Origin: Pseudolabrys sp.
GTDB lineage: Bacteria; Pseudomonadota; Alphaproteobacteria; Rhizobiales; Xanthobacteraceae
Assembly: GCA_026125895.1 (NCBI GenBank)
Contig: JAHCKG010000009.1
Location: 86,603-150,602, forward strand
Length of the DNA: 64,000 nucleotides
Reading direction: 5' to 3'
Shown: positions 47,901 to 63,258 of the stretch, piece by piece
How the letters are laid out: each line of letters begins with the position of its first letter
Position numbering within the stretch: the stretch's first letter is position 1
Notes under the pieces: model-generated
What the model was told of the DNA's origin: nothing
The model's input: the letters and a program-made list of their open reading frames with translations, nothing else
The model's database searches: none
Made by a program: the position numbers and the translations under genes

Positions 47901-48032
47901 ACCCTCCCCCTTGTGGGGAGGGTCGGCGAACAAAGTGAGCCGGGGTGGGGGTAGCGGCGAATAGCAATCACCCCCACCCCGACTGCTTTCGCTATCGCTC
48001 GAGCAGTCGACCCTCCCCACAAGGGGGAGGGT
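47901..48032. repeat. Long nested inverted repeat, family C
   Basis: Perfect 25-bp terminal inverted repeats (47901-47925 starting ACCCTCCCCCTTGTGGGG, and 48008-48032 ending CAAGGGGGAGGGT) enclose a second inverted pair (GCCGGGGTGGGGGT with ACCCCCACCCCGAC). Each end also folds on itself. It lies between lepB and the PAN gene. The C-rich arms resemble the copies framing the DUF559 gene at 61.4-61.9 kb. Confidence 0.85.
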
Positions 48033-53661: not shown

Positions 53662-53755
53662 GTCGTCCCCGCGAAGGCGGGGACCCATACGCCGTGTCCT
53701 CTCGATAGCACGGTGGCTATGGGTCCCGGGTCTCGCTACGCTCGCCCGGGACGAC
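53662..53755. repeat. REP-type palindromic repeat, family B copy 1
   Basis: Starts GTCGTCCCCGCGAAGGCGGGG with ACCCATA following, and ends GGCTATGGGTCCCGGG plus CCCGGGACGAC. The two outer units are mirrored (GTCGTCCC with GGGACGAC; GGGACCCATA with TATGGGTCCC). It lies between ybaK and the gshA stop. Other copies are at 57297, 58580 and 63160, all in the same orientation. Confidence 0.85.
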
Positions 53756-53763
53756 ACTAGATT

Positions 53764-57296: not shown

Positions 57297-57391
57297 GTCG
57301 TGCCCGCGCAGGCGGGGACCCATAGCCTCTGGCCCCACGATGGCGCGGTGGTTATGGGTCCCGGGCCTCGCTATCGCTTGCCCGGGACGAC
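57297..57391. repeat. REP-type palindromic repeat, family B copy 2
   Basis: Starts GTCGTGCCCGCGCAGGCGGGG and ends GCCCGGGACGAC with internal ACCCATA and TATGGGTCCCGGG. Same orientation as the other family B copies. It lies between arsR and the helicase. Confidence 0.85.
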
Positions 57392-58579: not shown

Positions 58580-58674
58580 GTCGTCCCCGCGAAAGCGGGG
58601 ACCCATAATCCCCGCGCTCTCGACGGCGCGGTGGCTATGGGTCCCGGGCCTCGCATCCGCTCGCCCGGGACGAC
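58580..58674. repeat. REP-type palindromic repeat, family B copy 3
   Basis: Starts GTCGTCCCCGCGAAAGCGGGG and ends TCGCCCGGGACGAC, with the internal ACCCATA and TATGGGTCCCGGG. It fills the gap between the convergent helicase and fadJ-like genes. Confidence 0.85.
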
Positions 58675-61396: not shown

Positions 61397-61846
61397 TCAG
61401 TTCTCCGCCGAGCCATTCCCCTCCCCCCGCGCGCTCTTGCGCGTGGTGGGGAGGGGTAAGGGGTGGGGGGCTGATCGGGCAGCAAGCGCCTCGTGGATCA
61501 ATGTCATCACGCCCTCTGTATTGGTCAGGACATCGGTATTCCAGAAGCGGAGAACTTCGTAGCCGAGAGTTGCGAGATAGCGTGTCCGCGCGGAATCCTT
61601 CGCAGCGGTTTGCGCCTCCATGTGAGCGCTGCCGTCGAGCTCGATAACAAGCCTGGCTTGATGATGGGCGAAATCGGCGAAATACGGTCCGATGGTCGCC
61701 TGACGGCGGAAATGTCCTTCGCCAACGCGCAGGCGGCGCAAATGCCACCACAGCCGATGCTCGGCTTCGGTCATGTCACGGCGCAACGAACGCGCGCGCG
61801 GCACGCGCCGGTCAGCTTTCCGCTTCTGCCGCTCGCCGCGAAGCAT
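61397..61846 (-). CDS. DUF559 endonuclease-like protein framed by inverted palindromes
   Basis: A 149-residue protein of the DUF559 group, related to the Vsr/PD-(D/E)XK nuclease fold. The likely metal site is D58 (in IGPYFADFAHH), E69-L-D71 (LVIELDGSAH) and H75. The N-terminal MTEAEHRLWWHLRRLR helix is also typical. The C-terminal 24 residues (from APHPLPLP) are encoded by the palindrome at 61415-61471, and the start codon lies at the edge of the opposite copy. DUF559 proteins are thought to be nicking or mismatch-type nucleases; no activity is proven here. It separates the thiolase gene from the cupin/fadJ genes. Confidence 0.85.
   Translation of the reverse strand: MLRGERQKRKADRRVPRARSLRRDMTEAEHRLWWHLRRLRVGEGHFRRQATIGPYFADFAHHQARLVIELDGSAHMEAQTAAKDSARTRYLATLGYEVLRFWNTDVLTNTEGVMTLIHEALAARSAPHPLPLPTTRKSARGEGNGSAEN
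61415..61471. repeat. Family C palindrome, 3' side of the DUF559 gene
   Basis: Reads ATTCCCCTCCCCCCGCGCGC, then a short loop, then GCGTGGTGGGGAGGGG and TAAGGGGTGGGGGGC. The arms fold as a hairpin. Its inverted partner is at 61847-61894; the first 16 bases and the last 20 match nearly exactly. The copy overlaps the 3' end of the coding region. Confidence 0.9.
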
Positions 61847-61894
61847 GCCCCCCACCCCTGACCCCTCCCCGCCGCTTCGCGGGGGGAGGGGAAT
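61847..61894. repeat. Family C palindrome, 5' side of the DUF559 gene (inverted)
   Basis: Reads GCCCCCCACCCCTGACCCC, then TCCCCGCCGCTTCGCGGGG and GGAGGGGAAT. Its reverse complement has the same ATTCCCCTCCCCCCGCG start and GGGGTGGGGGGC end as 61415-61471, with a shorter hairpin loop. It begins at the base after the start codon on the minus strand. Confidence 0.9.
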
Positions 61895-63159: not shown

Positions 63160-63258
63160 GTCGTCCCCGCGAAGGCGGGGACCCATACGCCGTGCGCTCT
63201 CGATGGCACGGTGGCTATGGGTCCCGGGGTCTCGCGCTGCGCGCTCGCCCGGGACGAC
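63160..63258. repeat. REP-type palindromic repeat, family B copy 4
   Basis: Starts GTCGTCCCCGCGAAGGCGGGG and ends CGCCCGGGACGAC; very close to copy 1 (shared ACCCATACGCCGTG and GCACGGTGGCTATGGG). It occupies the gap between the acyl-CoA dehydrogenase and thiolase genes. Confidence 0.85.

Follow-up and report, generated by a model that had tools for sequence, protein, structure and literature searches.

Short DUF559 nuclease genes recurrently sit between paired copies of an intrastrand triplex motif (TM), and our survey confirms that this observation is real and general. The repeat was known and so was the protein family; what appears to be new is the link between them, which suggests DUF559 as the missing partner of the TM repeat family. 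We consider it probable, at roughly 60%, that a repeat-associated element in two parts underlies this: a cassette composed of one such gene and two TMs would be its autonomous form, and gene-less TM doublets its miniature. By analogy, the best reading would be a system laid out like REPIN/RAYT whose enzyme and DNA structure are both of unrelated kinds. The window, that is, the whole 64,000-nt stretch of Pseudolabrys sp. DNA analysed here, contains the following features:

61397..61846, minus strand: DUF559 (Vsr-like PD-(D/E)XK) nuclease gene, from a PF04480 profile match
61418..61470, plus strand: TM at the 3′ end of the gene, from inverted-match search, block reading and folding
61848..61891, minus strand: TM at the 5′ end of the gene, from inverted-match search, block reading and folding
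47902..48031, no strand assigned: gene-less inward TM doublet with 25-nt arms, 100% complementary

The window cassette and the three-block rule

Read from the ATG at 61846, the window gene encodes 149 amino acids and ends at 61397, and its DUF559 domain spans about 61488-61804. The open reading frame, taken from an upstream GTG, matches PF04480 (DUF559) at E 1.1e-34 with 119 bits, which exceeds the curated cut-off of 20.6. Six residues of the aligned domain (E15, D44, E55, D57, H61 and D70) do not vary among 19 sequences and are taken, as in the family, to be catalytic. Pfam labels DUF559 as being of unknown function; judged from its sequence, the window protein is a putative Vsr-like PD-(D/E)XK nuclease. 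Short DUF559 nucleases are under purifying selection, with dN/dS of 0.05-0.21 in 12 of the 14 pairs compared (two pairs were saturated). Besides DUF559 no gene, and in particular no transposase gene, was recognised inside the window unit. A reading of the cassette as a defence system was discarded, PADLOC having yielded weak partial matches only.

TMs follow one plan: a pyrimidine (Y) arm, a loop, a complementary purine (R) arm, 3 nt and a G-rich third block that mirrors the purine arm, with G answering to G and A either kept or replaced by T. The pairing rule of purine-motif triplexes is G.GC, A.AT and T.AT, and the TM repeat family has been known for decades. At the 3′ end of the window gene, the Y arm lies at 61418-61426, the R arm at 61448-61456, the linker at 61457-61459 and the third block at 61460-61470, the letters being CCCCTCCCC ... 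GGGGAGGGG TAA GGGGTGGGGGG. The same blocks recur at the 5′ end (Y arm 61891-61883, R arm 61870-61862, linker 61861-61859, third block 61858-61848), with the linker TCA instead of TAA, and both third blocks point at the gene. The initial annotation had described two inverted copies of a palindrome of about 50 bp that bracket the gene, one encoding its last 24 residues and the other lying one base from the start codon. The inverted copies are indeed there, matching over 27 nt at 93% (61445-61471/61847-61873) and over 17 nt at 100% (61415-61431/61878-61894), and so is this arrangement: the 3′-end TM doubles as coding sequence for the C-terminal tail of the nuclease, and the 5′-end TM stops one base before the ATG at 61846. 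What had to be given up is the plain palindrome, in whose place there is a three-block TM. By its blocks the window repeat is assigned to an already known class, the intrastrand triplex motif, also called TM, PIT or BoxC (PMC4666352). For the E. coli version of the motif, triplex folding in vitro is reported, and the same work describes no stable triplex in vivo (PMC4666352). As single strands the two window TMs both folded better than their shuffles, with z-scores of -4.56 and -2.25, in a program that has no triplex model.

The mirror rule can be followed across loci. Within the genus, a perfect third block is found on the inward side of 121 of 125 hairpins, versus the outward side of 6 of 126. 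Where the arms are asymmetric, mirroring beats direct repetition by 76:8 in the genus (88 ties) and by 110:36 in a wider set (148 ties), the wide-set ratio being diluted by strands without a third block, as hairpins were scored on both strands. The wide-set comparison rules out direct repetition as the rule, and Watson-Crick complementarity was rejected in the same comparison of blocks. A perfect mirror third block is present in 87 of 172 genus cases, compared with 1.3 when the downstream sequence is shuffled and 34.6 when it is exchanged; swapped third blocks still fit perfectly in one fifth of cases because TM subtypes resemble one another. The letters of the blocks vary by group (CCTTCTCCC with GGATGAGGG, CCTTCCCCC with GGATGGGGG, CCCCCTT with GGGGGAT), the mirror relation being constant. 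Outward-pointing third blocks were seen in Deinococcus and Synechocystis and at a number of Gastranaerophilales loci.

Could the flanking TMs be expression signals only, with the third block serving as ribosome-binding site and the hairpins as terminators? The single base that separates a third block from the window ATG would suit this idea, as would the third blocks seen by eye near an ATG in some other cassettes. It accounts poorly for the presence of the same motif, inverted, on both sides, for gene-less doublets and for the occurrence of both orientations across groups, and PIT elements reportedly act neither as promoters nor as terminators (PMC4666352). We regard this explanation as very improbable.

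Triplex motifs beside short DUF559 genes

To count, a perfect three-block TM had to lie within 260 nt of a gene for which both flanks were present. The genus set was made of 60 short DUF559 loci and the five of the window genome, followed by 44 more, and covers 109 of about 122 matches; the figure of 122 is the genus matches minus one long-family match per listing genome, and the remainder were fragments or not listed. Both 260-nt flanks were present at 61 of the 65 loci of the first batch, all 61 of which had a TM on at least one side and 53 an inverted inward pair. The corresponding numbers in the second batch were 37 of 44 loci, with a TM at 35 and a pair at 25. The expectation that related DUF559 genes would carry such flanks above chance was thereby borne out: in total, a perfect TM lies beside 96 of 98 short genes of the genus, with an inward inverted pair in 78, versus any TM in 3 of 228 shifted control windows and no pairs. 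Read by eye, the two genes without a perfect TM (2 of the 37) are flanked on either side by an imperfect copy, and five of the seven second-batch loci dropped for incomplete flanks show a TM on the available side. Twenty loci of the ~400-aa DUF559 family in the same genomes served as control, and a TM was found at one of them; an association of TMs with DUF559 in general is therefore rejected.

Among 80 named relatives chosen by protein similarity, which according to their record titles are mainly Alpha-, Beta- and Gammaproteobacteria but also Chloroflexi, Gastranaerophilales and others, 72 had both flanks. Any TM was found at 65 of these and an inverted pair at 40 (third blocks inward in 35 and outward in 7, two loci showing both), seven having no perfect TM; their shifted controls gave any TM in 19 of 674 and no pairs. 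In a class sample, from whose motif reading one of 29 loci (L280) was left out by the motif filter, 24 of 28 genes had a TM, 11 a pair and four no perfect TM, versus 1 of 56 controls with a TM and none with a pair. Nine of 28 plasmid matches were hand-picked to add Deinococcus and cyanobacteria; six have a TM by the strict rule, and two of the three that lack a perfect TM show pure C/G/G blocks with arms of five or six. One Neisseria match was read apart. At this Neisseria gonorrhoeae locus (L391), where the DUF559 gene encodes a protein that agrees with PDB 3hrl over the part aligned, the flanking TM copies are direct, not inverted, by eye.

The best inverted flank-to-flank match has a median of 33.8 at 62 loci, versus 15 in 236 control windows. 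All five DUF559 genes of the window genome have inverted motif flanks, in several motif variants, and together with the flank matches and the shifted controls this rules out chance palindromes. One of these five copies (L005 1501-1815) carries an in-frame TAG and is apparently decaying.

The two ends of a cassette match each other and follow the protein. Both ends belong to one TM subtype in 47 of 55 cassettes, compared with a chance mean of 10.3 and a maximum of 21 in 10,000 trials, and to different subtypes in the other eight; ten of 65 cassettes had one scored end only. On a tree of 30 non-syntenic DUF559 proteins, one per syntenic cluster, TM subtype requires 10 changes, when shuffling gives a mean of 19.3 and reaches so low a number in 0 of 200 trials; support for this tree is modest, with 7 of 27 inner branches starred. 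TM subtype and nuclease co-diversify. That the repeats belong to the unit rather than being separate neighbours, as had been proposed, is upheld by flanks that occur in most short DUF559 relatives and not as a rule in the controls, and by ends that co-vary with the protein.

Gene-less doublets, motif numbers and orthologous sites

The window doublet (47902-48031) would be a non-autonomous, REPIN-like form of the unit. In the genome to which it belongs the motif pattern finds 123 TMs and the backwards control pattern none, and most of the 123 are away from the five DUF559 genes, in gene-less doublets or alone. Among the 100 listed of these 123, there are 31 inward pairs (62 TMs) with members 15-60 nt apart, and no outward or tandem neighbours under 500 nt. 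Among 62 listed of the 90 TMs of another genus genome, G004, 12 inward neighbour pairs have gaps of either 18-27 (eight pairs) or 343-401 (four pairs), and all four wide pairs enclose its four short DUF559 genes. Stem-loops of the window genome's doublets are identical to those of its own cassettes in 23 of 41 cases, compared with at most 12 for the cassettes of any of 21 other genomes; the remaining 18 have no exact match to any own cassette. The initial proposal of a RAYT/REP-like layout around a nuclease that is not a RAYT is supported by the flank surveys, by the co-varying ends and by the cassette-less orthologous sites described below.

Motif numbers rise with gene numbers. Across 43 genus genomes, the TM count correlates with the count of short DUF559 genes with a rho of 0.84, phylogeny not corrected for, and the value is 0.83 given genome size and 0.78 once two TMs are deducted for each cassette. 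The eight genomes that lack a short gene hold 0-21 TMs (median 1.5), versus a median of 45 in the 35 genomes with one. G030 is an exception, with 21 TMs and no short DUF559 gene; G061 has a short gene and no TM by the pattern, and there the flank scan finds one beside the gene (L396).

A RAYT or another Y1 transposase might mobilise TMs as it does REPs, an idea for which the layout, shared with REPIN/RAYT (PMC3116915), would speak. A PF01797 (Y1_Tnp) match at E<=0.001 exists in five of the 43 genus genomes, among them, as a weak match, TM-rich G025. None was obtained at this threshold in the other 38, which include the window genome and the TM-rich genomes G000, G011, G022, G002, G004 and G010; this absence largely refutes a RAYT as mobiliser in the genus and leaves the idea highly unlikely.

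The initial annotation had pointed to a comparison of orthologous loci with and without the cassette. Cassette-less sites do exist, but not all are clean, as some hold a lone hairpin or a TM whose subtype is different. The thiolase-cupin junction of the window was matched in 42 of 43 genus genomes (30 loci read) and has the cassette in the window genome, G032 and G009. By eye, no repeat separates the two genes at 15 of these 30 loci, where the distance between them is less than about 90 nt. A single TM of a different subtype is present in G028, the closest relative, and a gene-less doublet in G004; two genomes have a lone hairpin and six have unrelated repeats. Ten cassette sites were further sought in six genomes, the L002 site being left out of the reading. 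Clean empty junctions were found for L093 (5 of 5 genomes), L072 (4 of 5), L066 (two), L111 (at least three), L004 (1 of 3) and L005 (one). Hairpins without a third block occur at the sites of L087 (three) and L001 (two) and, in another subtype, of L005 (three). The L001 site in G004 retains a decayed gene end, and a decayed DUF559 remnant at one site with a tail-less hairpin (L370, read by eye) points to loss. Tail-less hairpins might be footprints of excision by the nuclease, but they are explained by simple recombination of one palindrome with the other.

At the six sites compared, in genomes that have diverged, none showed a clear target-site duplication, and no case of recent transposition was caught among the sites compared. 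Many cassettes share their flanks between genomes and have therefore been inherited in place. One cassette is inverted in place (L100 versus the syntenic L093, L095 and L096), and the hpa operon shared by two Deinococcus plasmids holds cassettes at junctions that differ. In a survey of doublet sites, 12 of 20 doublets were queried in four genomes and 30 loci read. At least two further, unrelated repeat families occupy TM or cassette junctions (L146, L147, L150, L162, L158, L161, L305), so these intergenic spots accept many repeats. At L356, G004 has an unrelated ORF where G032 holds a DUF559 cassette. Another dispersed repeat of about 95 nt (GTCGTCCCCGCGAAGGCGGGGACCCATA...) has four copies in the window, at 53662-53756, 57297-57391, 58580-58674 and 63160-63254.

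The sharing of junctions with unrelated repeats, and the excess of 123 TMs over five DUF559 genes that most of them do not adjoin, would be expected if TMs were self-spreading or recombinogenic repeats moved by another agent, with DUF559 merely often caught between two of them. A passenger gene, however, should not be enclosed by every one of the cassette-sized inward pairs listed in G004, nor should its protein co-vary with TM subtype or its absence go with so few TMs. We consider this account improbable.

A proposed TM-bounded nuclease element, its relatives and E. coli

How might such a unit spread? In the two-part element that we favour, the unit would consist of a TM, a gene for a small Vsr-like DUF559 nuclease and an inverted TM, and the gene-less inward doublets would be its miniature, non-autonomous form. 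When a single strand of the TM is exposed during replication or repair, it would fold into a hairpin or triplex; the nuclease would recognise its cognate TM subtype and then nick, and this may have two consequences: i) host repair or recombination would copy or move the TM-bounded unit, or ii) it would convert other TM sites. The two palindromes are direct repeats of each other, and a deletion from one to the other would leave a hairpin without third block. Since a hydrolytic nuclease cannot join strands, spread would be homing-like or repair-like rather than classical transposition. Should the nuclease indeed read this fold of three strands, triplex DNA would have a biological reader, and repeats could spread without a transposase. 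A bolder version, whose odds we put somewhat short of even, holds that BoxC, PIT and TM repeats across phyla are the ends and miniatures of one ancient family of selfish nuclease elements, in which each DUF559 nuclease would recognise its own subtype by the fold of three strands and nick-induced repair would copy the TM-bounded unit. Were it true, this would be a new class of mobile element with neither transposase nor recombinase and with triplex DNA as recognition signal.

The known system most like the cassette is REPIN/RAYT (PMC3116915), in which a small enzyme gene is likewise flanked by palindromic repeats of the genome, inverted gene-less doublets occur, the counterpart here being TM pairs 15-60 nt apart, and several repeat types per genome are each tied to an enzyme and inherited mainly vertically. 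The cassette is nevertheless not a member: its enzyme is of the DUF559/Vsr-like PD-(D/E)XK type whereas RAYT is a Y1 HUH transposase, no Y1 enzyme is present in the unit or matched in 38 of 43 genomes, and its repeat is a three-block triplex motif whereas REP is a simple palindrome. Insertion sequences and MITEs also have inverted ends around one gene and short gene-less forms; the cassette differs in having no transposase and, at the six sites compared, no clear target duplication, and its ends are triplex motifs. A precedent for a selfish nuclease of the Vsr fold is PDB 3r3p, a homing endonuclease titled 'mobile intron protein' and a distant sequence relative (E 0.0013), which presumably has the Vsr fold and belongs to the family named EDxHD; the cassette differs from it in lacking an intron or intein.

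With TM/PIT/BoxC elements (PMC4666352) the window repeats share the arms, the mirror third block, the intergenic position and the inverted pairs; the difference is that these are known as orphan repeats, for which a nuclease partner is proposed here. In that paper the origin of the motif is called unclear and no mobility genes are reported nearby, and its main text has no match for DUF, nuclease, endonuclease or ycjD. Searches of an open-access library, bioRxiv not included, found no report of a link between DUF559 and triplex repeats. YcjD (PMC1189080), VsrA (PMC12907096) and PDB 3hrl are of the same family and share its conserved acidic, Arg, Gln and His residues; the cited passages on the first two present them as nucleases of PD-(D/E)XK or mismatch-repair type rather than as repeat partners. 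Caulobacter VsrA, a DUF559 protein, is described as required for the SOS response of cells without cytosine methylase and is proposed to be a mismatch-repair nuclease (PMC12907096). A role in the DNA-damage response supports an active nuclease, but it also supports a rival in host repair.

In this rival the protein is a domesticated repair or maintenance enzyme that resolves or nicks TM structures or mismatches, the TMs keep or control the gene, and nothing spreads. Strong purifying selection and the many cassettes inherited in place agree with it, as do the VsrA results and single genes such as ycjD of E. coli, whose region has a coverage of 80% or more in 3364 of 5426 E. coli genomes. Against it speak several element-like features: a genome may hold a number of dissimilar copies whose TM subtypes differ, gene-less doublets match cassettes, TM number rises with gene number and orthologous sites can be cleanly empty. 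We judge it unlikely, though by no means negligible.

Joining TM and DUF559 makes both testable in E. coli K-12. This strain is reported to have 23 such motifs, and in Table 1 of the same paper four of five TM pairs are inward with gaps of 16-27 nt, the fifth being outward with a gap of 59 (PMC4666352). TM no. 9 (1351239-1351204) lies 167 nt downstream of ycjD (1351407-1351760, minus strand), a DUF559 gene that has an intact TM downstream only, plus a decayed copy in its own 3′ end. In 39 genomes spread evenly over the ranking of 5365 records (one plasmid record dropped), the median number of query-matching places is 14 in the 25 with the ycjD region versus 2 in the 14 without it, a difference that may reflect lineage. 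In the best places of the genomes without the region the TM part alone is covered. Just upstream of ycjD, where a second TM would be expected, lies a different, near-perfect palindrome (L283 2240-2310).
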